From the NCBI RefSeq assembly GCF_017963645.1, contig NZ_JAGMWN010000001.1:434001-498000 (forward strand): a stretch of DNA of 64,000 bases, given 5' to 3'. Source of the stretch: Marivibrio halodurans. GTDB lineage: Bacteria; Pseudomonadota; Alphaproteobacteria; UBA8366; Aestuariispiraceae. The first letter of the stretch is position 1, and each line of letters begins with the position of its first letter. The translations under genes were made by a program, and so were the position numbers. Shown piece after piece: positions 5,009-48,174 of the stretch. The notes beneath the pieces were generated by a model. It had not been told where the DNA came from. It was given only the letters and a program-made list of their open reading frames with translations, and did no database searches.

Positions 5009-5081
5009 TCCGTCCCGCCCCTTGCCGTTCCGGTCACGCGCGACAATTTCTTCTCCGATCGGCTGTTCGGAGGATCACGAG

Positions 5082-5702
5082 ATGACGGGACGCATTACCG
5101 GCCACGCGTTGCTGCTGGCGCTCGCCCTAGGGCTGGCCGCTTGCGGTGGGACGCCCCTGCTGGGGTCATCGGACTTCGTCCTGACCAAGACTCAGGTCAA
5201 ACCGGCCTATGACGTCGGTAATTTCCGTTTCGCCCACGGCTCGAAGAACATGCCGGTCGCGGTATCCGGCCGGGCCCGCGGCCTCGACGAGCAGGCGATC
5301 GGTGTCGCGATCGCCCAGGCGATGACAGGGCGCACGCCGGTTGCCCCCACGACGTTCGTTAGCGCGCCCGACACCCCCCTCGACGCCAGCCGCCTCGCGG
5401 TAAGGGTCGCCCCGCCGATCGACATGAGCGCGGGCAGCCTGTGCGCCGGCCGGCGGATCGATCAACAGGCCCAGGATATGGACGGGAAGGTACGGGAGCC
5501 GGACCGCCTGACGCTCCTGCTCGCCTATTGCAACGGCGCGCGGCATCTGAGTTCGACACACCTGACACTGGCCTTGCCGGCGGATGGCACGGGTTTCGAC
5601 ACACCGGCCTTCCGACGCGCCGCCGCGTTGGTGGCGACGGAAATCTTTCCGGCCCGCGATCCGAACGACGATGCCAGTTTCGAATTCATGATGGCGAACT
5701 GA
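5082..5702 (+). CDS. Putative membrane lipoprotein of unknown function
   Basis: A 206-residue protein starting at ATG 5082, behind a GGAGGA about 7 bases upstream. The N-terminus is a lipoprotein signal: basic MTGRITGH, a leucine/alanine-rich core, then lipobox LAAC, placing the lipidated cysteine at about residue 21. The mature part has no family I recognise. It contains two further cysteines (SLCAGRR and LAYCNGAR) about 37 residues apart, which could form a periplasmic disulfide. It lies 73 bp downstream of the c-di-GMP protein on the same strand and may share its transcript. It converges with the hydrolase gene. Confidence 0.65.
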   Translation: MTGRITGHALLLALALGLAACGGTPLLGSSDFVLTKTQVKPAYDVGNFRFAHGSKNMPVAVSGRARGLDEQAIGVAIAQAMTGRTPVAPTTFVSAPDTPLDASRLAVRVAPPIDMSAGSLCAGRRIDQQAQDMDGKVREPDRLTLLLAYCNGARHLSSTHLTLALPADGTGFDTPAFRRAAALVATEIFPARDPNDDASFEFMMAN

Positions 5703-5741
5703 TCGCCCCCCCTTTAGTCGGCATGATGATGCCGTCATGCT

Positions 5742-6449
5742 CTAGCGCTCGTGAAGCAGCCAATCGCGCATCAGGGTGGTCGCCGCGTGCGGGCGTTCCA
5801 AGGTCGGCAGGTGACCGCATTCCTCGATGACGGCGAGGCGGGCACCCGGAACGAGCGCCGCCATCTCCTCATGTAACGCCAGCGGGGTCAGGGCGTCCTG
5901 CCGACCGCACAGCACAAGCGTCGGACATGCCACTTCCGCCAGCCCCGGCCGCGCGTCGGGGCGCCCGATGATCGCGGTCTGCTGGCGCACGAAGCCCGCC
6001 TGCCCCACGGCCTCGGCCATGGTCATGATCGGATCGACAAGGGATTTGTCCTCCAGCCGCTCCTCATGCACCAGCATCGGCAGAAGACGCGGGGTCACCC
6101 CCTTGAACTTTCCTTGATCCGAAAGCGCGATCAACCCCTGGCGGCGGCGCGTCGCCTCGGCCGTATCGGGGCGGGCCTGCGTGTCCATCAGGGCCAGTTT
6201 CGTTACGCGCTCCGGCGCCTTGCGCACGACCGCCATGGCGACGTAGCCGCCCATGGACAAGCCCGCGAGCGCGAAGCGTGCCGGCGCCTCGGCCAGCAAC
6301 CGATCGGCCATCGCGTCGATCGAATCGTCGCGCAGCGTATCGGCAACCACGATATCCGCGATATCGGCGAGGTGACGGGTCTGGTGCGCCCACATCCCAT
6401 CGGTCAGCAGCAGACCGGGAACGAGGACGAGCGGGGTACGGTCGGACAT
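5742..6449 (-). CDS. Alpha/beta-fold hydrolase
   Basis: A 235-residue cytoplasmic esterase/lipase-like enzyme. The nucleophile elbow GLSMGG places Ser65. The acid is Asp185 in GRQDALTP and the base His213 in ECGHLPTLERP, giving a complete catalytic triad in canonical order. The oxyanion strand LVLVPGLLLTDGMW resembles the MhpC/BioH-like branch. The start ATG 6449 overlaps the stop of the isochorismatase-type gene by one base (TAATG), so the two are translationally coupled. Substrate is not deducible; a small ester or amide handled together with the upstream cysteine hydrolase is the simplest reading. Confidence 0.85.
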   Translation of the reverse strand: MSDRTPLVLVPGLLLTDGMWAHQTRHLADIADIVVADTLRDDSIDAMADRLLAEAPARFALAGLSMGGYVAMAVVRKAPERVTKLALMDTQARPDTAEATRRRQGLIALSDQGKFKGVTPRLLPMLVHEERLEDKSLVDPIMTMAEAVGQAGFVRQQTAIIGRPDARPGLAEVACPTLVLCGRQDALTPLALHEEMAALVPGARLAVIEECGHLPTLERPHAATTLMRDWLLHER

Positions 6450-6991
6450 TACTTGATCAACTCCAGCAGTTCCTTGAATTCGGGCGTCGCCGCCTCGCCG
6501 ATCCATTCGAACAACACCATCTCGGTGGTAACGATCTGCGCCCCGGCCGCGGCGAGACGGTCAAGCCCCATACGCCGGCTCTCCGCCGCGCGGCTTGCCA
6601 CTGCATCGGCCACGACCGCCGTTTCGAAACCACGTGCCATGAACCCGGCGGCGGTTTGCAACACGCAGACATGCGCTTCCGACCCCGCCAGCACGATACG
6701 ACGACGGTGGGTCGCCGCCACGGCGTCGGCCAAGCCCCGGGCGCGCGCGCCGTCGAAGGTCGTTTTCCCATGAATCTCCCCCGCCTCCAACAACGCGCGG
6801 ACCGGCGGAACGGTCGGGCCCAACCCCTCGGGATATTGCTCGCTCGCCAGAACCGGGATCTGAAGACGCCGCGCGGCGCGGATCAGCCGGAGGGCGTTGG
6901 CCAGCGTGCGTTCGCCCTCCATCACGGCCGGTATCAGCCGTTCCTGCAAATCGACGAGCAAAAGCAGAGATTGGGTTCGTTCGAGAAGCAT
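6449..6991 (-). CDS. Isochorismatase-family cysteine hydrolase
   Basis: A 180-residue member of the isochorismatase/nicotinamidase fold. The catalytic triad is visible as Asp14 in LLLVDLQERL, Lys76 in HGKTTFD and Cys109 in SEAHVCVLQTA. This short form resembles YcaC/ribonuclease-like and mitochondrial isochorismatase-domain proteins more than true isochorismatases, so hydrolysis of an amide or imine is more likely than siderophore synthesis. ATG 6991 is the first in-frame start preceding the conserved core; sequence further upstream in frame is not family-like. It is the first gene of a two-gene unit with the alpha/beta hydrolase. Confidence 0.85.
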   Translation of the reverse strand: MLLERTQSLLLLVDLQERLIPAVMEGERTLANALRLIRAARRLQIPVLASEQYPEGLGPTVPPVRALLEAGEIHGKTTFDGARARGLADAVAATHRRRIVLAGSEAHVCVLQTAAGFMARGFETAVVADAVASRAAESRRMGLDRLAAAGAQIVTTEMVLFEWIGEAATPEFKELLELIK

Positions 6992-7137
6992 GACATGATC
7001 CGTGACGACATTGACCTGCGGCGCGCGGGATCGGCGAGAGTAGCGCCGAGCGTGACCAGTCGGCAACGCTTGCCCGTCAAAGCGGTGCGATCCGGGCCAA
7101 AGCTGGCGAATTCCGGCCGATCCGGCGATGCACGGCG

Positions 7138-7165
7138 TTGACTTGAACGGTGCAACCCCTATAGT
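7138..7165 (+). promoter_or_regulatory. Predicted sigma-70 promoter of the RNA helicase gene
   Basis: TTGACT at 7138-7143 and TATAGT at 7160-7165 are separated by 16 bp. This is the best match to the housekeeping consensus in the 438-bp gap between the isochorismatase-type gene and the helicase. Transcription would begin near 7172 and leave a leader of about 258 nt. Confidence 0.5.
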
Positions 7166-7171
7166 CCGCCG

Positions 7172-7429
7172 CGATATGCCATTGGGCGCCCGCCTCTCCG
7201 CCGATTGGACGGGGCGCACCGTAAAAACCCGGGGATGGCTGGCGGATGGGCCGGCCATGCGGCATATGGCCCAAGCTGGAGGCCCGGCCATAGAGCCGAC
7301 GAGAGTGTGATCCGAGCGCGCGGTCGTGAAAGACCGGCACCGAGTCGCCCCTGCCGAGGGGCCCTACCCGGCCCGCATGAGGCCCACCAACCGTAGCCCG
7401 CAACGCGTTAGGACTGAAGCGCCAACCAT
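7172..7429 (+). other. Long 5' leader of the DEAD-box helicase gene; no ORF of its own
   Basis: No gene is supported between 6992 and 7429. The part downstream of the predicted promoter is GC-rich and full of short inverted repeats, for example GCGCCC against GGGGCGC around 7187-7219 and GGGCC against GGCCC around 7248-7273. The helicase ATG lacks a good Shine-Dalgarno; the nearest AGGA is about 16 bases upstream. A structured leader that is remodelled to allow translation is therefore plausible. Long structured leaders are known for cold-shock RNA helicases of other bacteria. Confidence 0.4.
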
Positions 7430-8896
7430 ATGACCACATTCGCCGACCTGGGACTTTCCGACAATGTACTGCGCGCGGTCAGCGACGCGGGCTATGAATC
7501 TCCAACGCCGATTCAGGCGAAAGCCATTCCTCCCGTTCTGATGAACAAGGATATTCTCGGCTGCGCTCAGACGGGAACCGGCAAGACGGCGTCCTTCACG
7601 CTGCCGATGATCGATATCCTGTCCCAGGGACGCGGGCGGGCACGGATGCCACGATCCGTCATCCTGGAGCCGACGCGCGAGCTCGCCGCCCAGGTCGCCG
7701 AGAATTTCGAGACCTACGGCAAGTATTGCAAGCTGGAGATGGCGCTCCTCATCGGCGGGGTCAGCTTCACCGAACAGGAACAGAAGATCACGCGTGGCGT
7801 CGATGTACTGATCGCCACGCCGGGCCGGCTTATGGACCACTGCGAGCGGGGGAAGGTCATCCTGACCGACACCAAGATCCTGGTGATCGACGAGGCCGAC
7901 CGGATGCTCGACATGGGGTTCATTCCCGATGTGGAACATATCGTCTCGCTGATGCCGCGCTTCCGTCAGACGCTGATGTTCTCGGCCACCATGCCGAAGG
8001 AAATCCGGCGGCTGGCCGACAAGTTCCTGGACAGCCCCAAGGAAATCACCGTCGCCCCGCCGGCCACGACCGCCGACACCATCGAACAGTCGGCGATCCC
8101 CGTCAGCCCGCGCGGCAAGCGCCGGAAACTGACGGAACTGCTGCGGGTCGAGGATGTCTCCAACGCGCTGGTCTTCTGCAATCGCAAGCGCGACGTGGCG
8201 ACCCTCTACCGCTCGCTGGAAAAGGACGGCTTCAAGGCCGGCGCCCTCCATGGCGACATGGACCAGTATAAGCGGATGGAATGGCTGGCGAAGTTCCGCG
8301 ACGGGGAGATCAACGTCCTCGTCTGCTCCGACGTCGCCGCGCGCGGACTGGATATTCCGAGTGTCAGCCACGTTTTCAACTACGACGTCCCCAATCATTC
8401 GGAGGACTATGTCCACCGGGTCGGACGCACCGGACGCGCGGGCCGCAAAGGCAAGTCGGTCACCCTCGTCACCGAGAACGACGACAAGCAGATCGCGGAG
8501 ATCGAGAAGCTGATCGGCCGCAAGATCAATCTTGAGAAACCGGCGGAAAGCGACACGGCCGAGGCACCAGAATCACCCGCCGCCACCGCCCAGCCCGTCG
8601 AAGCCGGGGACGACAAGGCACCGTCGACGAAGAAGGGCCGCGCCAAGAAAAGCCGTAGCCGCCGACCGGCGGAAGCCGCGCCAAGGGAAGCAGGCGAGGA
8701 AACCTCCAAGGAACCGACCGGGGACAAGAAGCCGGCAGCCAATGACGAGGGTCGACGCTCCGTGAAGCCGCGCGAGCCGCGTGGCGCGCGATCGTCCAAC
8801 CGCCGGGGCGAGCGGGTCCCCCCCGACGTCCCGCCCGAGGAGTTGAATAAACCTTTCGGCGAGACCGACTTGGTTCCGGCATTCCTGAGACGCTGA
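7430..8896 (+). CDS. rhlE: DEAD-box ATP-dependent RNA helicase, RhlE type
   Basis: A 488-residue helicase with all family motifs: Q motif (TPIQ at about 26), AQTGTGKT (46-53), PTRELA (81-86), TPGR (130-133), DEAD (154-157), SAT, ARGLD and HRVGRTGRAGR. The core ends near residue 375. A roughly 100-residue low-complexity tail rich in Lys, Arg, Ala, Pro and Glu follows, closing with GETDLVPAFLRR, as in alphaproteobacterial RhlE proteins. Such tails anchor the enzyme to RNA. The likely role is unwinding of structured RNA during ribosome assembly or mRNA decay. It is a single-gene unit behind a long leader. Confidence 0.88.
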   Translation: MTTFADLGLSDNVLRAVSDAGYESPTPIQAKAIPPVLMNKDILGCAQTGTGKTASFTLPMIDILSQGRGRARMPRSVILEPTRELAAQVAENFETYGKYCKLEMALLIGGVSFTEQEQKITRGVDVLIATPGRLMDHCERGKVILTDTKILVIDEADRMLDMGFIPDVEHIVSLMPRFRQTLMFSATMPKEIRRLADKFLDSPKEITVAPPATTADTIEQSAIPVSPRGKRRKLTELLRVEDVSNALVFCNRKRDVATLYRSLEKDGFKAGALHGDMDQYKRMEWLAKFRDGEINVLVCSDVAARGLDIPSVSHVFNYDVPNHSEDYVHRVGRTGRAGRKGKSVTLVTENDDKQIAEIEKLIGRKINLEKPAESDTAEAPESPAATAQPVEAGDDKAPSTKKGRAKKSRSRRPAEAAPREAGEETSKEPTGDKKPAANDEGRRSVKPREPRGARSSNRRGERVPPDVPPEELNKPFGETDLVPAFLRR

Positions 8897-9512: not shown

Positions 9513-9952
9513 GGCCGACCTCTCGTCGCGTTTGACGTTTAAAAAAATGAACACGAACACCCACGAAGGCAAGTGAAAAGCCACATTCATCAGCGCGGGC
9601 AATCCTTTAGCGCCGGATTTTGCTGTTTAACGGCCCTCTTGCGATGCTGAAAAACTGTATTTGACCTGATATATTAAACGGCGTACAAGCATTTCGGACG
9701 CTAGGGGGTCGGAAAAGTGCCCCAACGTCACTCTCCAGGCGCGGAGAATGTCTCCGCGCGGGACATCGCAGGAACCCCATGACCGACAAGCACACCCCCC
9801 AGGCCGGAACCGGCGCGTCCAGGACGCGCAAGACCGCCACCCCCCGCGTACGCAAGGGCGCGAAATCGAAAAAGGCGCAGCCCGAGATGCTGGAGCCGCG
9901 CGCGGCGATCCTGTCCGAACCGATGACCACCACACACCGGGAGGCCCCCATC
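9513..9952. promoter_or_regulatory. Divergent control region of the PuuR-like regulator and the aminotransferase
   Basis: This 440-bp stretch is distinctly AT-richer than its surroundings. GTTTAA occurs at 9537-9542 and 9625-9630, and its complement TTAAAC at 9674-9679; the latter two are both followed by CGGC. A possible promoter for the aminotransferase is TTGACC (9661-9666), a 17-bp spacer and TACAAG (9684-9689). The repeated hexamers are candidate operator half-sites for the XRE-cupin protein. Bases 9779-9952 are an open, in-frame upstream extension of the aminotransferase with its own ATG and AGGA, discussed under that gene. Confidence 0.4.
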
Positions 9953-11257
9953 ATGACCAATGCCGATCTTTTGGCCCGCCGTCAGGCCGCCGTTCCGCGC
10001 GGTGTCGCGTCCGCCGCGCCGATTTTCGCCGACCGTGCCGAGAATGCCGAGGTCTGGGACGTCGAGGGCAAGCGCTATATCGACTTCGCTGGCGGCATCG
10101 CCGTGCTCAACACCGGCCACCGCCACCCCAAGGTGATCGAGGCCGCGAAGGCGCAGGAAGACCGTTTCACTCACACCTCCTTCCAGGTGATGGCCTATGA
10201 GCCCTATATCGCGCTGGCGGAGAAGCTGAACGCCCTGGCCCCCGGCGATTTCGCCAAGAAGTCGATCTTCCTGACCACCGGGTCCGAAGCGGTGGAAAAC
10301 GCGGTCAAGATCGCGCGCGCGGCGACCGGGCGCTCGGGTGTCATCGCCTTCACCGGCGGCTATCACGGTCGCACATTGATGACCCTCGGCCTGACCGGCA
10401 AGGTCAGCCCCTATAAGAAGGGCTTCGGCCCCTTCCCGGCCGACATCTTCCGCGTTCCCTTCCCGCAGAAGCGCGAGGGTATCTCGGTCGAGGATTCGAT
10501 CCAGGCGCTGGAGACACTGTTCCTGACCGACGCGGAGCCCAGCCGCGTCGCCGCCATCATCCTGGAGCCGGTGCTGGGCGAAGGCGGGTATTATCCCGTC
10601 CCGACCGAGCTGTGGCAGGCGCTGCGCGCGATCTGCGACAAGCACGGCATCCTGCTGATCGCCGACGAGGTGCAGTCCGGCTTCGGGCGGACCGGTCGCT
10701 GGTTCGCGATCGAGCATTCGGGCGTCGTTCCCGACATGATCACGGTCGCGAAGAGCATGGCCGGTGGCTATCCGATCTCCGGCGTCATCGGGCGCGCGGA
10801 CGTGATGGACGCGGTCGAGCCGGGCGGCCTGGGCGGCACCTATGGCGGTAATCCGGTGGCCTGCGCCGCGGCGCTCGCGGCCATCGAGGCGATCGACAGC
10901 GAAGGGCTGCTGGCCCGCTCCGAGGCGATCGGGACGAGCATGCGTCAGCGTTTCGCCGATATCGGCGCCAAGGCCGCGCCCTATCGGATGTGGGACATCC
11001 GCGGCCTGGGCGGCATGTTGGCGGTCGAGTTCGTCACCGACTTCGAAACGGCCCAGCCGGACGCGGCCCTGACCAAGGCCATCGTCGCCAAGGCGCTGGA
11101 GAAGGGCCTGGTACTGCTGGCCTGCGGCATGCATGGCAATGCCATCCGCGTGATGGTGCCGCTGACGGCCTCCGACGCGCTGATCGAGGAAGGCCTGCAG
11201 ATCTTCGAAGCCGCGCTTGTCGAGGCGGTCGCGGAACTGCAACAGGCAGCGGCGTAA
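9953..11257 (+). CDS. gabT: 4-aminobutyrate-type (class III) aminotransferase
   Basis: A 434-residue class III PLP enzyme with GabT/PuuE features. These include FAGGIAVLNTGHRHPKV, the phosphate-binding TTGSEAVENAVK, GGYHGRT, the pyridine-N aspartate D238 in IADEVQSGFGRTG, and the Schiff-base lysine K267 in TVAKSMAGGYPISG. GVIGR and GGTYGGNPVACAAA close the active site. ATG 9953 is preferred because GGGAGG lies 8 bases upstream and the length then fits GabT. The same frame continues to ATG 9779 with another AGGA, which would add 58 lysine/arginine-rich residues. Divergence from a PuuR-like regulator supports transamination of GABA or a related omega-amino acid such as a putrescine product. 5-Aminovalerate or beta-alanine remain possible. 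Confidence 0.85.
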   Translation: MTNADLLARRQAAVPRGVASAAPIFADRAENAEVWDVEGKRYIDFAGGIAVLNTGHRHPKVIEAAKAQEDRFTHTSFQVMAYEPYIALAEKLNALAPGDFAKKSIFLTTGSEAVENAVKIARAATGRSGVIAFTGGYHGRTLMTLGLTGKVSPYKKGFGPFPADIFRVPFPQKREGISVEDSIQALETLFLTDAEPSRVAAIILEPVLGEGGYYPVPTELWQALRAICDKHGILLIADEVQSGFGRTGRWFAIEHSGVVPDMITVAKSMAGGYPISGVIGRADVMDAVEPGGLGGTYGGNPVACAAALAAIEAIDSEGLLARSEAIGTSMRQRFADIGAKAAPYRMWDIRGLGGMLAVEFVTDFETAQPDAALTKAIVAKALEKGLVLLACGMHGNAIRVMVPLTASDALIEEGLQIFEAALVEAVAELQQAAA

Positions 11258-13368: not shown

Positions 13369-13824
13369 CTACCGGCCGAGTTGCTTGACGCTGCGCCCTG
13401 CCCAGTCCGGCGTGGGGTCGACCACGGCGGCCTTCATTTTCTCCAAGGCTTCCGCCGGGAAAGGCGCGGTCTTACCGGCCCGTGTGTCGAAATGCAGCAG
13501 CAGGCATTCGAAGGTCGCGCGCTCGCGGCCCTCGAACTCCATGACATGGGCGATCTGGAGTTTTTTCTCGTCGATGCCCAGGATCATGCTGGCGATCTCC
13601 AGATTCGCCGGCGCGCGCACCTCGTCGAGATAACGCAGATGCGTCTCCACCGTATAAAGAGCACAGCCGGTAGCGTCGAAATAATCCGTGCCGACCCCAA
13701 ACGCGTCCTGGAGCTTCCAGGTCGCGTTCGAGAACGGCACCAGATAATAGGCCTCGTTCAGGTGGCCGTAGGCGTCGAGCCAAGCATCCTGAAGCGGCTC
13801 CTTATGCAGGCGGTGAATGGTCAT
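13369..13824 (-). CDS. Hot-dog thioesterase similar to betainyl-CoA thioesterase CdhB
   Basis: A 151-residue single hot-dog domain. Features shared with CdhB and with the C-terminal domain of fused L-carnitine dehydrogenases are DAYGHLNEAYYLVPFSNAT near the N-terminus, LYTVETHLRYLDEV in the middle, LGIDEKKLQ, LLLHFDT, and a C-terminal GRSVK. CdhB hydrolyses betainyl-CoA to glycine betaine in carnitine breakdown. The other carnitine genes lie about 28 kb away, so this may supply the missing activity or may be a paralogue for another acyl-CoA. It is the second gene of a pair with a methyltransferase (22-bp gap). Confidence 0.7.
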   Translation of the reverse strand: MTIHRLHKEPLQDAWLDAYGHLNEAYYLVPFSNATWKLQDAFGVGTDYFDATGCALYTVETHLRYLDEVRAPANLEIASMILGIDEKKLQIAHVMEFEGRERATFECLLLHFDTRAGKTAPFPAEALEKMKAAVVDPTPDWAGRSVKQLGR

Positions 13825-40148: not shown

Positions 40149-41054
40149 TCAGGTCCTGATATCGGCGACCGGCCGCTTCGCACCGCGCACACGTTCGCGA
40201 TAGATTGTGTAAAGACCGCTCGCCACCACGATTCCGGCCCCGATGACGGTCCAGGAATCCGGCAAATTGTCGAACACCAGATAGCCGATGATCGTCGCGA
40301 AGACGAGAAGCGTGTAGTTGAAGGGTTGCAGCACGGAGGCCGGCGCCGCCTCCAGCGCCTTGATCAGCAGCAGGTGCCCCGTCGCCGCCGTGCAGGACAG
40401 CAGCAGCAGCCAGCCCCAATCAACCAAGGTCGGCCATGTCCAGAAGAAGGGACCGATCACCGTCATCACCGCCGCCCCGATCAACGCCATGTAGGTGAGC
40501 GAGGTTTCGCTGTCGTCATGGCGCGAGACCACCCGCGTCAGCACGTTATAGGCCGCGAAGAGCAGCGCCGTCAGCAGCGCGACCAGAACGCCCGGCTTCA
40601 ACGCCTCGAACCCCGGCCGCAGGATCACCAGCACGCCGCAAAAGCCGACCAGAACCGCCGCCCAACGGCGAATCCCAACCGCCTCGCGCAGGAAGAAGGC
40701 CGCGATGGCCGTCACCATCAAGGGGAAGGTGGCGAGCAACGAATGGATTTCCGCCAGCGAAAGCGTGCGGATCGCCACGATGAAGGCCCCGATCTCCGCC
40801 AGGATCAGCAGGGACCGTAAAATTTGAAGCCATGGCCGTTCGCTCCGCAGGCATTCGCGCAGCGGCTTCTTGCGCAAGGAGAAGGCCAGCGCGAAAGCCG
40901 CATAGAAGACGAACCGCACCCACAGGATCTGCGGCGTGGAATAGGTATCCGCCAGCCCCTTGGTGATGGCGTCCTGGGTCGCGAAGATCAGCATCGCGCC
41001 CACCACCAAGGTGATGCCGAGGGTCGGGTTATCCTGATGCGGTGCGCGTCTCAT
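40149..41054 (-). CDS. EamA/DMT-superfamily transporter
   Basis: A 301-residue protein with ten predicted TM segments in two EamA repeats. Repeat 1 includes GITLVVGAMLIFATQDAITKG and WVRFVFYAAFALAF; repeat 2 ends with HLLLIKALEAAPASVLQPFNY and GYLVFDNLPDSWTVIGAGIV. It exports small metabolites of unknown type. ATG 41054 is placed just before the first TM. Adjacent to the carnitine operon but separated by 75 bp and without a clear link. Confidence 0.85.
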   Translation of the reverse strand: MRRAPHQDNPTLGITLVVGAMLIFATQDAITKGLADTYSTPQILWVRFVFYAAFALAFSLRKKPLRECLRSERPWLQILRSLLILAEIGAFIVAIRTLSLAEIHSLLATFPLMVTAIAAFFLREAVGIRRWAAVLVGFCGVLVILRPGFEALKPGVLVALLTALLFAAYNVLTRVVSRHDDSETSLTYMALIGAAVMTVIGPFFWTWPTLVDWGWLLLLSCTAATGHLLLIKALEAAPASVLQPFNYTLLVFATIIGYLVFDNLPDSWTVIGAGIVVASGLYTIYRERVRGAKRPVADIRT

Positions 41055-41129
41055 GCGGAAGCGCTTATCCCATCGCGCGCCGGGCCGCAAACCCAGCGCG
41101 CGTCGGAACAGTCGGGACCGGAAAAGGCC

Positions 41130-41918
41130 CTACCGCCCCTTCCACTCCGGCTTGCGCTTCTCCGCGAAGGCGCGCGGGCCTTCCCTGCTGTCCTCGCTCT
41201 CCAGCATGGCGAGATAGGTGGGCAGGTCATGGCTGCGCAGCAGGTCGAAGGCGTCCTGGGTTTCCATGTTCGCGGTCTCGCGCACCACCTCCTTGATGCA
41301 GGCGAAGACCAGCGGCGGCCCGTCGGCCAGCAGGCGGGCGAGTTCCCAGGCGCGCTCGCGCAGGCGTTCGCCGGGCACCACTTCGTTGACGAGGCCCCAA
41401 TGCTTGGCCTCCTCGGCCGCCATCCAGCGGCCGGTCAGCAGCATGTCCATCGCCACGTGATAGGGAATGCGCTTGGGCAGCTTGATGGTGGCGGCGTCGG
41501 CCAGGACGCCGATATTGATCTCCGGAAGGGCGAAGCGCGCATGGTCCGCCGCGATCAACATGTCGCAGGCCAGCGCGATCTCGAACCCGCCGCCGACGCA
41601 CATGCCGTTGACGGCGCAGATCACCGGCTTGTTTAGGTCGGGCAGCTCCTGCAAGCCGCCGAAACCGCCGACGCCGTAGTCGTCCTCATATTCGGCCGCG
41701 CCGGAGGCCGCATCCTTCAGGTCCCAACCGGCGGAGAAGAATTTCTCTCCCCCGCCCGTGACGATGGCGACGCGCAGGGACGGATCGTCGCGGAAGCGCT
41801 GGAAGGCGAGGCCCATCTCGCGGCTCGTCGCGTTGTCGATGGCATTGGCCTTGGGCCGGTCCACCACGACCTCCAGGATGCCGTCCTTTTCCGTCAGTTT
41901 CAGCGAAGATTGGCTCAT
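41130..41918 (-). CDS. caiD: Crotonobetainyl-CoA hydratase-like enoyl-CoA hydratase
   Basis: A 262-residue crotonase. Similarity to E. coli CaiD runs through the whole chain: ILEVVVDRPKANAIDNATS, then RFRDDPSLRVAIVTGGGEKF and FSAGWDLKDA, VGGGFEIALA, FALPEINIGV, and the C-terminal AFAEKRKPEWKGR (CaiD ends in EKRDPVWKGR). CaiD hydrates crotonobetainyl-CoA to L-carnitinyl-CoA. GGGAGG precedes the ATG, which overlaps the ligase stop (ATGA). Position beside carnitine dehydrogenase and BKACE genes supports the specific assignment over a generic hydratase. Confidence 0.85.
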   Translation of the reverse strand: MSQSSLKLTEKDGILEVVVDRPKANAIDNATSREMGLAFQRFRDDPSLRVAIVTGGGEKFFSAGWDLKDAASGAAEYEDDYGVGGFGGLQELPDLNKPVICAVNGMCVGGGFEIALACDMLIAADHARFALPEINIGVLADAATIKLPKRIPYHVAMDMLLTGRWMAAEEAKHWGLVNEVVPGERLRERAWELARLLADGPPLVFACIKEVVRETANMETQDAFDLLRSHDLPTYLAMLESEDSREGPRAFAEKRKPEWKGR

Positions 41919-44002
41919 GCCACCTCCCTTTCCTCCGCAAGTCTCATGAAGGCGTCGGCCGCGACCGCCCCGTCCGTTCCCACGATCAACGGATTGACGT
42001 CGAGTTCGAGGAGACCGTCGCCCTGCGCCGCCGCGAAATCGGCGATCGCCTGTATCGCGTTCAGTGTCGCGGACAGATCGCCCGCCGGCCGGCCGCGATA
42101 CCCCTCCAGCAGGGGGAAGACGCGCAAGCGGCGCAACGCCGCCTCGATCCCGGCGCGATCCGCCGGCAGCGAGAGAACCGCGCGGTCCGCCAGCACCTCG
42201 GCCAGCACGCCCCCCGCCCCGATCATCAGGCACGGGCCGACCAGGGGATCGCGGATAATCCCGACGATCAATTCGGCCACCGGGGACGACACCATGCGCT
42301 CCACCAGCACATGGCCGGAAAGCGCGAGCAGATCCTCCACCGCCTCATGCAGCGCGTCCGCGTCCGCGAGACCGAGGCGCACGGCGCCATGTTCGCTCTT
42401 ATGCGCCATCGATGCGCTGACGGCCTTGGCGACGATCGGATAGCCGATGGCCTCCGCCGCGGCGAGGGCCTCGCTCGCGCTCGCCACCAACGCGCCCTCG
42501 GGCACGGCGACCCCGACGGCGGCAAGCCGCCGCTTCGCGCGGTATTCGTCGAGACTGCGCCCCGACCCGTCGGCAAGGATGGCCGGGCGCGGCGCGTGGG
42601 CTGAGTCCACGGCCGCCTCGGCGCCCGCCCGGGCCAGCCCGGCGCCGGCCAATGCGGCCGCGCGGACGGCGATCAGCGCCTCCTCGATCCCCTGCATCGG
42701 GGCGATCCCGGCGGCCATGAGATGCGCGCGCGCGGCGGATGGCAGGCATTCCGGCAGGCTCGCCACCACCATGGTCGGGCGACCCGTCGTCCGGGCGGCG
42801 GCGATCAGCGCATCGGTCGCCATTTCCCACCCCGTCTCGTCCCCGACACCGGCCTTGGGGTAGTCCAGCACCAGCATCCCGACATCGACCGGCGCCGAAA
42901 GGGCGGCGGTATAGCATGCCTCGCACGCCGCCTGATCGAGCCAGATATAGGTGTGATAGTCGAGCGGATTGTCGATCGCGATCCCCGGCCCCAGCGCCGC
43001 GACCAGCGCGGCGCGCGACGACGCATCGAAATCGGGCAGGGTGATGCCGACCCGCTCGGCGGTATCGGCGACCAGCGCCGCCTCCCCGCCGGAACAACTC
43101 ATGGAGACGAGACGCCCGCCCGGCAGTCCACCATGAACGTGAAGCAGCTTCAGCGTCTCCAGGAAGGCCGGGACACTCGCCGCGCGCGGCACGCCCAGGC
43201 GTTCCAGATAGGCATCGAAGGCGGCGGCCCCGCCCGCCATGCTGCTGGTATGGCTCAAGGTCGCGCGGGCGCCGCGCGCGGAAAGCCCGGTCTTGAAAGC
43301 CAGCACCGGCTTGCCCGCCCGGTGCGCGGCGGCGACGGCGCGGGCGAAACGCTCCGCGCCCTCCGGCAGCCCCTCCAGATGGACGCCGATGGCGCTCACC
43401 CTCGGATCGGCGGCATGCGCCTCGATCAAGTCGGCGGGGCCGACCGTCGCGGCATTGCCCACCGTCGCCAGATGCGCGATCGGCAGGCCGCGATCCTGCA
43501 TGGTGAAGTTGATCGCCATATTGCTCGACTGCGCGACGATGGCGACGCCGCGCTCCACCCGTTCGCCGCCATGGACGTCGGGCCAGAGGGTCACCCCCTC
43601 CAGATAGTTCAACATGCCGTAGCAATTCGGCCCCAGGATCGGCATGGCGCCGGCGGCCCCGACCACGCGGGCCTGCAGGGCCTCGCCCTCGGCGCCCGCC
43701 TCCTTGAAGCCGGCGGCGTAGCAGACCGCCCCGCCCGCGCCCATCGCGGACAGCTCGGCCACGACATCGACCGTCGCCTCGGGCGGCACCGCGACGAAGG
43801 CCGCGTCCGGCGGCGCGTCGAGGGCACCGACCGACCGCTTGCACGGGATGCCCGCCAGCATCTCGCGCTTGGGATGAACGACCTCGATCACGCCGGCGAA
43901 GCCCGCGCGGCGGCATTGCTCGATCGCGACACCGCACTCCCGCCCGCCGATGAAGGCGATCCGACGGGGAGAGAGCAGACGGCTCAACCGTCCTTCCGCC
44001 AT
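41915..44002 (-). CDS. NDP-forming acyl-CoA synthetase (acetate-CoA ligase family, fused subunits)
   Basis: A 695-residue enzyme with an N-terminal CoA-binding domain (LSPRRIAFIGG, ILGPNCYGMLNY), succinyl-CoA-ligase-like flavodoxin domains with KTGLSARGARATLSHTSSMAG (catalytic His region), and a C-terminal ATP-grasp domain from about 480 (KAVSASMAHKSEHGAVRLGL, then LDVNPLIV). These enzymes use ATP and CoA to activate a carboxylate, releasing ADP and Pi, and are reversible. In this operon the predicted substrate is gamma-butyrobetaine, crotonobetaine or carnitine. In E. coli the corresponding step uses CaiC (AMP-forming) and CaiB (CoA transferase), so this is a different solution. ATG 44002 lies 10 bp after the dehydrogenase stop. 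Confidence 0.85.
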   Translation of the reverse strand: MAEGRLSRLLSPRRIAFIGGRECGVAIEQCRRAGFAGVIEVVHPKREMLAGIPCKRSVGALDAPPDAAFVAVPPEATVDVVAELSAMGAGGAVCYAAGFKEAGAEGEALQARVVGAAGAMPILGPNCYGMLNYLEGVTLWPDVHGGERVERGVAIVAQSSNMAINFTMQDRGLPIAHLATVGNAATVGPADLIEAHAADPRVSAIGVHLEGLPEGAERFARAVAAAHRAGKPVLAFKTGLSARGARATLSHTSSMAGGAAAFDAYLERLGVPRAASVPAFLETLKLLHVHGGLPGGRLVSMSCSGGEAALVADTAERVGITLPDFDASSRAALVAALGPGIAIDNPLDYHTYIWLDQAACEACYTAALSAPVDVGMLVLDYPKAGVGDETGWEMATDALIAAARTTGRPTMVVASLPECLPSAARAHLMAAGIAPMQGIEEALIAVRAAALAGAGLARAGAEAAVDSAHAPRPAILADGSGRSLDEYRAKRRLAAVGVAVPEGALVASASEALAAAEAIGYPIVAKAVSASMAHKSEHGAVRLGLADADALHEAVEDLLALSGHVLVERMVSSPVAELIVGIIRDPLVGPCLMIGAGGVLAEVLADRAVLSLPADRAGIEAALRRLRVFPLLEGYRGRPAGDLSATLNAIQAIADFAAAQGDGLLELDVNPLIVGTDGAVAADAFMRLAEEREVA

Positions 44003-44012
44003 GATGCCCCCG

Positions 44013-45173
44013 TCAGCCGCCGAGCGGGCGCAACAGCCCGCGCGAGATGATGTGCCGCTGGATCTCCGAGGTGCCCTCCCAGATGCGTTCCAGCCGCGCA
44101 TCGCGCCAGATCATCTCCAACGGCAGTTCGTTCATCAGGCCCATGCCGCCGTGAATCTGGATCGCCTCGTCCGCGATGAAGGCCAGCGCCTCCGTCGCCG
44201 CCAGCTTGGCCATCGCGGCGTCGCTGTCGGTCATGGTGCCCTGGTCGTGCTTCCAGGCCGCCTCGTAGGTGACGAGTTCCGCCTGACGCAGCCTCAACGC
44301 CATGTCGGCCAGCTTGAAGCTGACGCCCTGGAACTTGCCGATCGGCTGGCCGAACTGCTTGCGATCCACCGCCCATTGCGTGGCCAGTTCCAGCGCCCGG
44401 TCGCACCGGCCGAGGCAGGTGCCGGCCACCTGCAGGCGCGTCGCGCCGAGCCAGTCATTGGCGACGTCGAAGCCCTTGTCGACCTCCCCCAAAACCTGGG
44501 AAGCTGGGACGCGGCAATCGTCGAATTCCAGGATGAAATTGTGATAGCCGCGCATCGAGACGTTCTTGTAGCCGGGCCGGATTGTGAAGCCAGGCCAACC
44601 CTTGTCGATCAGGAAGGTAGTGATCTTCTTACGCGGGCCGCGCGGGCCGTCCTCCTCGCCGGTCGCCGCCATCAGGATCACGAAATCCGCCCAATCGGCA
44701 TGGCTGATGAAGTGCTTGGTGCCGTTGATGACGAAGTCGTCGCCGTCGCGCACGGCCCGGCAGTTCATGCCGCGCACGTCGGACCCGGCGCCCGGCTCCG
44801 TCATGGCGAGGCAATCCACCTTCTCCCCCCGGATGCAAGGCAGCAGGTACTTCTCCCGCTGTTCCCCGACACAGGCCTGGAGGATGTTGGACGGCCGGTA
44901 GACCGTATAGTGCAGCGCATAGGACGCCCGTCCCAATTCCCGGTCCAGCATGGTCATGGACAGCGTGTCGAGACCGCCGCCCCCCAATTCCTCCGGCATG
45001 GCGGCCGCGTAGAGGCCAAGTTCCCGGCTCTTTTGCTTGATCCTCTCGGCTACCTCGACCGGGACCTCGTCGGTCTCCTCGACCGTACGTTCGTGGGGGT
45101 AGAGTTCCTCCTCCACGAAGCGGCGCGCCATCTCGATCAGCAGGCGCTGTTCCTCGCTCGGGCTGAAATCCAT
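44013..45173 (-). CDS. Acyl-CoA dehydrogenase, probable gamma-butyrobetainyl-CoA dehydrogenase
   Basis: A 386-residue FAD enzyme with standard domains. AMTEPGAGSDVRGM (FAD/substrate loop) is followed by NGTKHFISHADWADF, DRKQFGQPIGKFQ, IQIHGGMGLMNELPLE and the catalytic glutamate in IWEGTSEIQRHIISRG. Acyl-CoA dehydrogenases in CoA-dependent gamma-butyrobetaine routes form crotonobetainyl-CoA; the neighbouring caiD-like and carnitine genes make that the likely role. It lies 5 bp downstream of the carnitine dehydrogenase gene. Electrons would pass to ETF, encoded elsewhere. Confidence 0.85.
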   Translation of the reverse strand: MDFSPSEEQRLLIEMARRFVEEELYPHERTVEETDEVPVEVAERIKQKSRELGLYAAAMPEELGGGGLDTLSMTMLDRELGRASYALHYTVYRPSNILQACVGEQREKYLLPCIRGEKVDCLAMTEPGAGSDVRGMNCRAVRDGDDFVINGTKHFISHADWADFVILMAATGEEDGPRGPRKKITTFLIDKGWPGFTIRPGYKNVSMRGYHNFILEFDDCRVPASQVLGEVDKGFDVANDWLGATRLQVAGTCLGRCDRALELATQWAVDRKQFGQPIGKFQGVSFKLADMALRLRQAELVTYEAAWKHDQGTMTDSDAAMAKLAATEALAFIADEAIQIHGGMGLMNELPLEMIWRDARLERIWEGTSEIQRHIISRGLLRPLGG

Positions 45174-45178
45174 GGCGG

Positions 45179-46156
45179 TTATCGTCCTTCCTTATCCGCG
45201 CGCTCGGCCAGCAGGCGTCCGGCGCCCTCGCGGTACTTCGACAGCGCGCGCATGATGTCGATCAGGCAATCGTCGCGCAGCCGCTCCAGATCGCGGATCG
45301 CGACGCCCTGAAGCTGCTCGCCCGTGCCCTCGACCATGCGTTCGATCAGGGCCTCGGTCAGGTCCGGCGCCTCGAGCTTCGTCCAGGGCAGTTTCAGGGC
45401 CGGGCCGAACTGCTTCATGAAATGGCGCATGCCCTGCTCGCCACCGGCCAGCGCGAAGGTCTTGTTGACCCCCATGAAGGCCCAGCGCAGGCCGGGTCCA
45501 TAGACGATGGCGTCATCCAACTCGCCCGTCGTCGCCACGCCGTCGGCGACGAGGTGCAGATTCTCCCGCCACAGCGCCTCCTGAAGACGGTCGGAGAGGA
45601 ATCCCTCGATCTCCGTGCGCACGCGCAAGGGGTGCATCTCGATCCCGCGATAGAAGACCTCCGCCCGGTCGAGCACGGCCGGATCGGTCTTCTTGCCGCC
45701 CAGAATCTCCACCAGCGGCAGCAGATAGACCGGATTGAAGGGATGGCCGACCAGCACGCGTTCCGGATGACGGCACTTCGCCTGGAACTCGCTCGGCAGC
45801 AGGCCGGAGGTCGAACTCGCGATCGGTACATGCGCCGGCGCGACGGCGTCGATCCGGCTATGAACGTCGATCTTCACGTCCAGGTTCTCGGGCGCCGATT
45901 CCTGGATGAAATCGGCCGCCTCGGCCACCGCCTCCAGGCTGTCCACGGTCGTCAGCCGATCCTGCGAGGCACCGGGGGCGAGGCCCATCTTCTCCATCGC
46001 CGGCCAGGCATTCGCCACCTTGGCCCGCAAGACGGCGGCCCCTTCCGGTGCCGGGTCCCAGGCCACGACATCAAGCCCGCGGGCCAGCGCCCGCGCCGCC
46101 CACCCGGCCCCGATCACCCCGCCGCCGACGAGGCCGAAGCACTTGATCTCCGTCAT
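45179..46156 (-). CDS. cdhA: L-carnitine 3-dehydrogenase
   Basis: A 325-residue NAD-dependent 3-hydroxyacyl-type dehydrogenase. The Rossmann loop is GLVGGGVIGAGWA (8-20); the catalytic region includes SSTSGLLPSEFQ and GHPFNPVYLLPLVEILGG. The C-terminal half has GFLSDRLQEALWRENLHLV and IVYGPGLRWAFMGVN, all typical of carnitine dehydrogenases (LcdH/CdhA). In many bacteria this gene carries a fused C-terminal thioesterase; here it stops after the dehydrogenase. It oxidises L-carnitine to 3-dehydrocarnitine. AAGGA precedes the ATG; gap of 20 bp to the BKACE gene. Confidence 0.9.
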   Translation of the reverse strand: MTEIKCFGLVGGGVIGAGWAARALARGLDVVAWDPAPEGAAVLRAKVANAWPAMEKMGLAPGASQDRLTTVDSLEAVAEAADFIQESAPENLDVKIDVHSRIDAVAPAHVPIASSTSGLLPSEFQAKCRHPERVLVGHPFNPVYLLPLVEILGGKKTDPAVLDRAEVFYRGIEMHPLRVRTEIEGFLSDRLQEALWRENLHLVADGVATTGELDDAIVYGPGLRWAFMGVNKTFALAGGEQGMRHFMKQFGPALKLPWTKLEAPDLTEALIERMVEGTGEQLQGVAIRDLERLRDDCLIDIMRALSKYREGAGRLLAERADKEGR

Positions 46157-46176
46157 TTAAACGTCGTCCTTCCCGA

Positions 46177-47067
46177 TCAACGATGCTTGGTGAGCTGGAA
46201 CTTCGCGCGCGCCTCGTCCGGGGTCAGCACCCGCGCGCCCATCAGTTCGATGATCCGGCGCGCCTTGGCGACCAGATCGGCGTTGGAGGCCAGGACGCCG
46301 CGTTCGAGATAAAGGTTGTCCTCCAGCCCGACGCGAACATTCCCGCCGAGCAGCACGGCCTGCGCCACCATCGGCATCTGCATGCGACTAATCCCGAAGG
46401 CCGACCAGTTCGATCCCTTGGGCAGCATTTCCGCCATCGCCTTCATGGACGTGGTGGAAGCCGGCGCGCCATAGGGAATCCCGAGGCAAAGCTGGAACAG
46501 CGCCGGGGCATCGATCAGCCCCTCGTCGATCAGTTCCTGGGCGTGGACGATATTCCCGGTGTCGAAGGCCTCGATCTCCGGCTTGACCCCGATCTCCTTG
46601 ATCTCCTTCGCCAGCGCGAAGAGCATCCGGGTCGTGTTGGTCATGATGTAGTCGCCATGACCGAAATTCATCGTCCCGCAATCAAGCGTGCAGATCTCCG
46701 GCATCGACCGGCGCACATGGGCCAGACGCTCCGAGGCCGGCGCCATGTCGGTCGCGGCATGGTCGATCGCCAGCGGGTCCTCCGGCGGGCCGAGCGTCAG
46801 GTCGCCGCCCATGCCGGCCGTCAGGTTCAGGACGACGTCGGTGCCGCTGGCGCGGATGCGCTCGCACACCTCCTCGAACTTATCCGGGTCGCGGGACGGC
46901 GTGCCGTCGTCCTCGCGCACATGGATATGCACGATCGCCGCGCCGGCCTTCGCGGCCTCGACCGCGCTGTCGGCGATCTGGGCCGGCGTCTTGGGCAGAT
47001 CGGGATGCTTGTCCTGCGTCGCGCCGGAGCCGGTGACGGCGCAGGTGATGATCACGTCCTTGTTCAT
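46177..47067 (-). CDS. cdhC: BKACE-family 3-dehydrocarnitine:acetyl-CoA transferase/lyase
   Basis: A 296-residue TIM-barrel zinc enzyme of the beta-keto acid cleavage (BKACE, DUF849) family. Zinc ligands H47 and H49 lie in AAIVHIHVRE; the conserved VLNLTAGMGGDL, LDCGTMNFGH and EAFDTGNI segments follow, and NVRVGLEDNLYLERG sits near the end. CdhC enzymes react 3-dehydrocarnitine with acetyl-CoA to give betainyl-CoA and acetoacetate. Co-location with carnitine dehydrogenase makes this substrate much more likely than 3-keto-5-aminohexanoate. It is the first gene of the operon, divergent from the regulator. Confidence 0.88.
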   Translation of the reverse strand: MNKDVIITCAVTGSGATQDKHPDLPKTPAQIADSAVEAAKAGAAIVHIHVREDDGTPSRDPDKFEEVCERIRASGTDVVLNLTAGMGGDLTLGPPEDPLAIDHAATDMAPASERLAHVRRSMPEICTLDCGTMNFGHGDYIMTNTTRMLFALAKEIKEIGVKPEIEAFDTGNIVHAQELIDEGLIDAPALFQLCLGIPYGAPASTTSMKAMAEMLPKGSNWSAFGISRMQMPMVAQAVLLGGNVRVGLEDNLYLERGVLASNADLVAKARRIIELMGARVLTPDEARAKFQLTKHR

Positions 47068-47208
47068 GGTCTAAGCTGTCCCCCGTTAAAGATTGACAGA
47101 TCCCTCGTCGAAAATCCGGGGTGGAGCCTATCCATCCCGCCGAAACCTATTTTACATTTTCCGATCATTGATTGATTATTTTCGCCAACTCATGAAATCC
47201 CGGAGCCC

Positions 47209-48174
47209 ATGTTCACCCCTCAATCCCACGGCGCGATCCAGCGCATCGGCTTCCTGCTGCTGCCGAAATTCTCGCTGCTTGCCTTCGCCAGCGCGATCGA
47301 GCCGTTGCGCGTCGCCAATCTGATGGCGGGTCGCACGCTCTATGAATGGCGGCTCTTGTCGGAGGATGGGGAGCCGGTCTCCGCCGTGAACGGCATGGCG
47401 AGCGTGGTCGACCATTCCCTCGACGACGCCCCCGCCCTGCCCGCGATCGTGGTAACCGCCAGCTATGAGCACGAACCGGCGATCAGTCGGCGCATCCTCT
47501 CCTGGCTGCGCCGGGCGGCGGTGTTCGGCGCGCGGCTGGGGGCGATCGACACCGGCAGCTTCGCGCTGGCCCGCGCCGGGCTGCTCGACGGCTATCGCGC
47601 CACCACCCATTGGGAGGAGTTGGAAGCCTTCGCCGAGCGGTTCCCGCGCGTGGAGGCGCGCCAGGATCTGTTCACGGTGGACCGCGACCGCTTCACCTCG
47701 GCCGGGGGGACGGCGGGCCTGGACATGATGCTGAACCTGATCCGCATGCAGCACGGGCAGGATCTGGCCACGGCCGTGGCGGATTTCTTCGTCTATGCCC
47801 GCATCCGCGACGCGCGGGACAGCCAGCGCATGCCGCTGCGCGCCCGGCTCGCCACCAGCAATCCCCACTTGATCCGCGCGGTGGAAGCGATGGAAGCGGC
47901 GTTGGAGGAGACCATCCCCATCCCGCGCGTCGCCAAGCGCGCCGGCATCTCCGAACGGGAGTTGGAGCGGATGTTCCGCCGCTGGCTCAACACGACGCCC
48001 GCGCGCTATTATCGCGGCCTGCGGCTCGACCGGGCGCGAGGGTTGCTGCAACAGACGGACATGCCGGTGCTGGAGGTGGCGACGGCGTGCGGCTTCAACT
48101 CCGCCGCCCATTTCGCGCGCAGCTATCGTCAACGCTTCGGCCGCTCCCCCACCGACGATCGCTCGCTTTCCTGA
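47209..48174 (+). CDS. cdhR: GlxA-type AraC-family activator, CdhR-like
   Basis: A 321-residue regulator. The N-terminal DJ-1/PfpI-like domain (about 10-195) includes IGFLLLPKFSLLAFASAIEPLR and IDTGSFALARAGLLDG, with Thr/Gly at the nucleophile turn instead of Cys, so it is a sensor and not an enzyme. The C-terminal AraC HTH (about 215-310) has IPIPRVAKRAGISERELERMF and LEVATACGFNSAAHFARSYR. CdhR and GbdR of pseudomonads, which control carnitine and betaine use, have this plan. It is divergent from the carnitine operon across 141 bp and is its likely activator. manC follows after 28 bp. Confidence 0.85.
   Translation: MFTPQSHGAIQRIGFLLLPKFSLLAFASAIEPLRVANLMAGRTLYEWRLLSEDGEPVSAVNGMASVVDHSLDDAPALPAIVVTASYEHEPAISRRILSWLRRAAVFGARLGAIDTGSFALARAGLLDGYRATTHWEELEAFAERFPRVEARQDLFTVDRDRFTSAGGTAGLDMMLNLIRMQHGQDLATAVADFFVYARIRDARDSQRMPLRARLATSNPHLIRAVEAMEAALEETIPIPRVAKRAGISERELERMFRRWLNTTPARYYRGLRLDRARGLLQQTDMPVLEVATACGFNSAAHFARSYRQRFGRSPTDDRSLS

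Follow-up and report, generated by a model that had tools for sequence, protein, structure and literature searches.

What does an acyl-CoA synthetase of the nucleoside diphosphate (NDP)-forming kind do among genes for carnitine breakdown? The question is raised by a 64,000-nucleotide stretch of the Marivibrio halodurans genome (hereafter the window), in which five same-strand genes encode a beta-keto acid cleavage enzyme (BKACE), an L-carnitine 3-dehydrogenase (CDH), an acyl-CoA dehydrogenase (ACAD), the synthetase and a CaiD-like crotonobetainyl-CoA hydratase, next to a divergent regulator gene (Table 1). This bacterial gene cluster is real and widely conserved, and judging from gene content and comparison among genomes, the operon is most probably a Bco-type catabolic unit that leads from gamma-butyrobetaine through carnitine to glycine betaine.

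A candidate operon for gamma-butyrobetaine catabolism

The operon lies on contig 11 of a genome of 4.18 Mb (22 contigs, 99.6% complete). The five-gene arrangement described in an earlier note on this DNA, with gaps of 20, 5, 10 and -4 base pairs (bp) and a divergent regulator, was borne out by our reading of the sequence and by domain scans that concurred with the gene calls for all six genes, the CDH being of the 3-hydroxyacyl-CoA dehydrogenase type and the CaiD-like protein an enoyl-CoA hydratase by its domain; the synthetase, its start taken at 44002, is 695 amino acids (aa) long counted from the ATG. The CDH is the sole protein of the locus above an NCBIfam equivalog cut-off and the single one of seven NF005471 matches in the genome above 414 bits. 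For the hydratase, PRK03580 is the best family by 100 bits (233 bits for the next), at a score below its cut-off of 500. The ACAD, which reaches 190 bits against the CaiA model (cut-off 540), carries IWEGTSEIQ, whose Glu falls opposite that of IYEGT in 1ukw and 2vig. Where the catalytic carboxylate is expected, all 47 cluster ACADs have an acidic residue: Asp in 31, and Glu in the other 16, to which the window enzyme belongs. The BKACE, for which 3c6c is the nearest solved relative, is 52-78% identical to 26 BKACEs from related clusters, and their 27-row alignment is conserved.

In the pathway that we propose, the synthetase would join gamma-butyrobetaine, and probably also crotonobetaine, to CoA at the expense of ATP and by way of a phosphohistidine, giving the CoA ester, ADP and Pi. 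The ACAD would desaturate gamma-butyrobetainyl-CoA to crotonobetainyl-CoA, and the CaiD-like hydratase would add water to yield carnitinyl-CoA. Once released as free carnitine, the product would be oxidized by the CDH to 3-dehydrocarnitine, from which the BKACE would form acetoacetate and betainyl-CoA using acetyl-CoA; cleavage of betainyl-CoA by a thioesterase from outside the operon would then give glycine betaine. The series from gamma-butyrobetaine by way of crotonobetainyl-CoA, carnitinyl-CoA and carnitine to glycine betaine, put forward in the earlier note, has the support of the gene content, of the conserved linkage and of the gene order shared with Rhizobium and Sinorhizobium.

Conservation of the gene cluster

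A check suggested in the earlier note, a search for the neighbourhood of synthetase, caiD, cdhA and cdhC, was run over genomes of the class, using an alignment of 13 synthetases as the query against 386 genomes. Only genomes at least 80% complete were included and at most three candidates per genome were scored, so the counts are lower bounds. A synthetase match at E <= 1e-120 was found in 70 of the 386 genomes, and scores were bimodal: 44 places, spread over 39 genomes and including the window, reached at least 598 bits, and 37 places stayed at or below 451. In the flanking DNA (8 kb at most, and less where a contig ended), the 44 orthologous places carry an ACAD in 31 cases, CaiD in 32, both in 29, a CDH in 17, a BKACE in 14 and all four partners in 13; not one of these four is found near the 17 controls, which were taken from the 37 lower-scoring places and mainly from the upper end of their scores. 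The gene set is not a chance grouping, since it recurs across class genomes. Neither CDH nor BKACE lies within the stretch at 12 of the 29 places with both ACAD and CaiD, some of which have cut contigs. This links the synthetase with desaturation and hydration rather than with the oxidation of carnitine.

Partners are distributed unevenly among the loop motifs of the synthetase. They are frequent at the 24 places with DYHT or DHHT (ACAD 23, CaiD 23, CDH 12, BKACE 12) and the 4 with DYTT (ACAD 4, CaiD 4, CDH 4, BKACE 2), and scarce at the 9 with DY[NQ]T (ACAD 3, CaiD 4, CDH 1, BKACE 0) and the 7 with remaining motifs (ACAD 1, CaiD 1), so that the linkage is confined to part of the synthetase clade.

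An orthologue is present in all 14 genomes of the window's own family. Scanning the contigs of named genomes turned up 13 synthetase loci, from alphaproteobacteria, and among 15 named or plasmid loci, a biased set chosen by similarity to the window (L018 was excluded because its synthetase runs off the contig), ACAD and CaiD occur together in 15 and all four partners in 12. Plasmid records with a synthetase match numbered 449, other superfamily members included; with the Rhizobium etli protein as the query at E <= 1e-100 there were 156 (Rhizobium 131, Sinorhizobium 7, Ruegeria 5). Phage records contributed four, all with weak matches. The order BKACE-CDH-ACAD-synthetase-CaiD with a divergent regulator recurs in R. 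etli CFN 42 p42c and R. leguminosarum CB782, both with an ABC transporter behind the cluster, and the same set, order and divergent regulator are found in Sinorhizobium sp. C101. Across the 26 kb of R. etli shown, for which the gene table is described as incomplete, the synthetase is the only CoA ligase. The stretch in Ruegeria pomeroyi DSS-3 contains genes for the ACAD, the synthetase, a DJ-1/PfpI protein and CaiD, and neither CDH nor BKACE.

Cluster content varies around this core. In R. pomeroyi (L019, 14017-14622), as in one other genome (L071), the DJ-1/PfpI gene separates the synthetase gene from that for CaiD. The DYTT-motif synthetase branch comprises L011-L015, L017, L073, L079, L088 and L101; nine of its ten loci have a luciferase-like monooxygenase gene, an aldehyde dehydrogenase gene or both, and none has a fused thioesterase. 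Five clusters (L007, L008, L018, L078 and L016) include a short-chain dehydrogenase gene that is perhaps D-carnitine-related. On a conjugative plasmid of Sinorhizobium numidicum (L130), synthetase and CaiD adjoin a pair of divergent ACADs, along with a PaaI-type thioesterase and a BKACE that is only distantly related; this may be a sister pathway that handles a different substrate. An EamA gene 39 bp downstream of the window operon (40149-41090) was considered as a further member and dropped, as it was seen at no other compared locus.

Table 1 Features of the operon locus and associated elements in the window
Feature	Position	Strand	Basis or remark
BKACE	46177-47067	-	PF05853, 338 bits
CDH	45179-46156	-	NCBIfam NF005471, 471.3 bits (cut-off 414)
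ACAD	44013-45173	-	Pfam ACAD domains; proposed gamma-butyrobetainyl-CoA dehydrogenase
NDP-forming acyl-CoA synthetase	41915-44002	-	PF13380, PF13607, PF13549; proposed gamma-butyrobetaine/crotonobetaine:CoA ligase, BcoAB type
CaiD-like crotonobetainyl-CoA hydratase	41130-41918	-	best NCBIfam match PRK03580, 333 bits
Divergent GlxA/GbdR/CdhR-type AraC-family regulator	47209-48174	+	PF01965 (DJ-1/PfpI) and PF12833 (HTH)
Weak operator candidate, GCGAAAAT-N14-CGGAAAAT	47156-47185	read on -	picked by eye, between regulator and operon
Unlinked CdhB-like 4HBT thioesterase	13369-13824	-	PF13279; 97.7 bits to the thioesterase half of PRK07531 (cut-off 592)

Family and fold of the synthetase

All three synthetase domains score above their cut-offs (CoA-binding PF13380, 41.4 bits; Succ_CoA_lig PF13607, 106.3; ATP-grasp PF13549, 162.9), and domains and fold alike make the protein a member of the ACD superfamily. 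The solved structure closest to its AlphaFold model (predicted local distance difference test score 86.9) is DddX (7cm9; Z 39.1, root-mean-square deviation 2.5, 663 residues, 26% identity), which Foldseek also places top; 2csu ties with it on Z (38.4), yet spans 423 residues only. His251, the phosphorylatable His of the swinging loop, aligns to DddX His292 and is kept in 13 of 13 rows of the synthetase alignment. DddX joins CoA to dimethylsulfoniopropionate (DMSP), a sulfonium zwitterion, using ATP, and its His292 is required (PMC8163506).

The 59 orthologous synthetase rows form one clade (Shimodaira-Hasegawa-like approximate likelihood ratio test support 100), apart from 19 others including DddX, in a quick tree with a midpoint root in which DddX and two paralogues from the window's own genome stand on long branches among those 19. 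Left out of the tree were the own paralogues L002 and L005, the second matches of L100 and L121, and L111, which has no long match. Glu432, the catalytic elimination base of DddX, becomes Thr390 in the window synthetase in two alignments (26% identity), and this loss and the separate tree position led us to reject membership among the DddX-type lyases, DddX being still the closest fold. An argument for cation-pi binding through W354 was dropped because the alignments disagree: the cation-pi residue of DddX, Trp391, aligns with the invariant W354 in one and lies near H350 in two others. The window synthetase is 46-47% identical to its Rhizobium orthologues, and genome records annotate the ligase of its relatives merely as 'acetate--CoA ligase family protein'.

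The divergent regulator

The regulator combines DJ-1/PfpI and helix-turn-helix domains and is nearest to GbdR (NF052371, 382.9 bits, below the cut-off of 480). We compared 30 intergenic regions between regulator and operon, in which the first operon gene is BKACE in 21 and ACAD in 9. An 8-base direct repeat (at most one mismatch) at 21-bp spacing is present in 15 of them, a number that overstates the evidence because the loci are related (L007, L008 and L018, for example, have a repeat in common). Other spacings between 10 and 44 bp were each seen in at most 4 regions, and 200 shuffles gave a mean of 1.32 and a maximum of 4; the letters of the repeat vary from clade to clade.

The window's own candidate (Table 1) has two mismatches in eight and 22-bp spacing and fails the 21-bp test that the 15 relatives pass; CGGAAAATG is like the half-sites of L006 and L075. 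Searching the genome with the candidate pattern at up to three mismatches gave 33 matches, of which the query site was the sole exact one; the reversed control gave 4. A firm operator in the window was rejected, a 22-bp-spaced match at 47079-47108 sitting at a different place from the eye-picked pair. The regulator probably controls the operon; because the window is without the 21-bp repeat, its position and its family are what point to this role there.

Release of CoA

Carnitine-degradation genes go by the names CdhA, CdhB, CdhC and CdhR, and the earlier note had invoked the first three as the known set; CDH and BKACE are indeed present, and a CdhB thioesterase is not in the operon. The window CDH is 325 aa long and covers positions 1-324 of 495 of the PRK07531 profile, so that the C-terminal thioesterase domain is absent, whereas the R. 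etli and CB782 enzymes have 496 aa and the thioesterase part. Among the five of 14 family genomes examined, the fused form occurs in G199 and G285 (the latter divergent, 33% identical) and not in the window, G099 or G359. An unlinked CdhB-like thioesterase within the window (Table 1; CdhB-like score 70.2 bits), 39% identical to the stand-alone thioesterase of L006, is a possible if doubtful candidate for a betainyl-CoA thioesterase. The genome has a second on contig 16 (125.2 bits), some 4 kb away from a BCCT transporter gene, which was not upheld as a specific stand-in for the lost fused domain, G285 having a 48% relative plus the fused domain. At L032, a BCCT transporter gene (4330-5940) and a CdhB-like thioesterase gene (9717-10229) are about 4 kb apart, with other open reading frames (ORFs) between. 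For carnitinyl-CoA, no thioesterase was identified among the CdhB-like proteins looked at, a search that did not extend to other thioesterase folds.

For the window, a thioesterase acting in trans is the simplest reading. A possible but considerably less likely arrangement is that the synthetase acts mainly or also in reverse, turning carnitinyl-CoA and betainyl-CoA with ADP and Pi into free acid, CoA and ATP in place of a thioesterase. NDP-forming enzymes are generally reversible, the thioesterase domain that the CDHs of G199 and G285 carry is missing from those of the window, G359 and G099, the latter two genomes have at best weak thioesterase-domain homologues (55.4 bits in G359 and 41.4 in G099), and a CdhB-like thioesterase is absent from the stretch at 19 of the 29 places that combine ACAD with CaiD. 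Against this stand the two better CdhB-like thioesterases of the window genome and the loci that retain the synthetase alongside a fused thioesterase, where it is not merely a substitute. On the same tentative footing, the synthetase might be a reversible hub that activates gamma-butyrobetaine and recovers CoA from carnitinyl-CoA, and from betainyl-CoA too where the CDH is unfused; carnitine would then be reached at no net cost in ATP, and betaine with a gain of one.

Alternative substrates and reactions

Several observations weigh against reading the operon as a gamma-butyrobetaine unit. Neither the CaiD-like hydratase nor the ACAD, the BKACE, the synthetase or the regulator reaches an NCBIfam equivalog cut-off; no transporter and no thioesterase is found among the five operon genes; and the window intergenic region is without a 21-bp-spaced pair, even at two mismatches. 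Fifteen of the 44 orthologous places are without ACAD, CaiD or both, in some cases owing to contig ends, and since synthetases with other loop motifs are mostly without partners, part of the clade may be doing other work. The genome also encodes two proteins like gamma-butyrobetaine dioxygenase (315.7 and 333.3 bits, below the cut-off of 414.75), so that gamma-butyrobetaine could be hydroxylated instead.

That the operon degrades another onium or 3-hydroxy acid, its carnitine names being inherited from annotation, would fit the CDH alone passing an equivalog cut-off, the use of DMSP by DddX with the same ligase fold, and the short-chain dehydrogenase, luciferase-like and aldehyde dehydrogenase genes of some clusters. 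We consider it improbable, given that the best family of the hydratase is CaiD, that the CDH does exceed its cut-off, and that related loci have a CDH-thioesterase fusion like the Sinorhizobium meliloti enzyme reported to act on carnitine and betainyl-CoA (PMC12482172). Least probable is elimination of trimethylamine from gamma-butyrobetainyl-CoA to crotonyl-CoA by the ACAD-like flavoenzyme, as by Emergencia timonensis BbuA, which is ACAD-like and has the same thioester substrate (PMC8364193): it would leave the adjoining CDH and BKACE purposeless, the bbu cluster has CoA transferases, ferredoxin, a transporter and a thioesterase (PMC8364193), and the dehydrogenase carboxylate is kept in 47 of 47 cluster ACADs, a set that does not include BbuA itself.

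Gamma-butyrobetaine breakdown to betaine is our preferred reading, and other genes of the genome touch on it. A trimethyllysine dioxygenase (301.8 bits, cut-off 268.3) is encoded on contig 18 (L131, about 5070-7870 including the next ORF), and gamma-butyrobetaine could arise from the breakdown of trimethyllysine. The ORF that follows on the same strand is aldehyde dehydrogenase-like by its first residues. TmpA, 2-trimethylaminoethylphosphonate dioxygenase (L126, 974-2164), scores 446.3 bits, above its cut-off of 400. Four ORFs of 813-867 aa carry FAO_M, which we take to be a domain of dimethylglycine and sarcosine dehydrogenases, and are in line with betaine use.

Relation to known systems

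The Escherichia coli cai operon works through CoA intermediates identical to those proposed here, and the window shares its CaiD-like hydratase; unlike it, the window is without CaiB/CaiC-type activation and has an ACAD distant from CaiA. The gene names bcoA/B reportedly appear in Lonza patents. With carnitine degradation in S. meliloti and Pseudomonas aeruginosa the window has in common a CDH, a BKACE (PMC12482172) and a GbdR/CdhR-type regulator, whereas its operon is without a thioesterase and adds genes for activation, desaturation and hydration. The S. meliloti CDH is reported to act on carnitine and also to convert betainyl-CoA to glycine betaine (PMC12482172, citing Bazire 2019). DddX shares with the window synthetase the full-length NDP-forming fold and the phosphohistidine position, and differs in tree place and at Glu432.

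The earlier note knew of no described pathway with such an activating step, and here it went too far. Strain HK4 turns gamma-butyrobetaine into L-carnitine by thioesterification, dehydrogenation and hydration (PMC3546705), a pathway analogous, not identical, to fatty acid degradation (PMC2131755), and S. meliloti BcoAB is a gamma-butyrobetaine:CoA ligase that, with ATP, Mg and CoA, made gamma-butyrobetainyl-CoA (PMC8364193). Both activate gamma-butyrobetaine with ATP and CoA, and HK4 next dehydrogenates and hydrates to carnitine. BcoAB would belong to the family of the window synthetase, since Rhizobium and Sinorhizobium clusters have this ligase beside a CDH-thioesterase, a likeness drawn by inference rather than from sequence; the parallel with HK4 is one of chemistry and not of genes. 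The linkage expected of a BcoAB-type ligase, with ACAD and CaiD-like neighbours, is present in the window, and the activating enzyme seems to be of a sort already known from Sinorhizobium. The passages on BcoAB in PMC8364193 name neither its family nor an NDP-forming mechanism, and our literature search returned no publication joining butyrobetaine with an NDP-forming acyl-CoA synthetase; we do not take this to mean that no paper describes BcoAB as NDP-forming.

Overall, the observation of the gene cluster was right, the pathway is probably right and the novelty was overstated; what interest remains lies in the ATP balance of the release steps. L-carnitine is made industrially by the HK4 route (PMC2131755, PMC3546705), and gamma-butyrobetaine and carnitine are carbon and nitrogen sources for soil and marine bacteria. 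The conserved gene order and the ligase clade make the pathway recognisable in genomes where the ligase has a vague label, and if the ligase also reverses, ATP would be recovered at the release steps.

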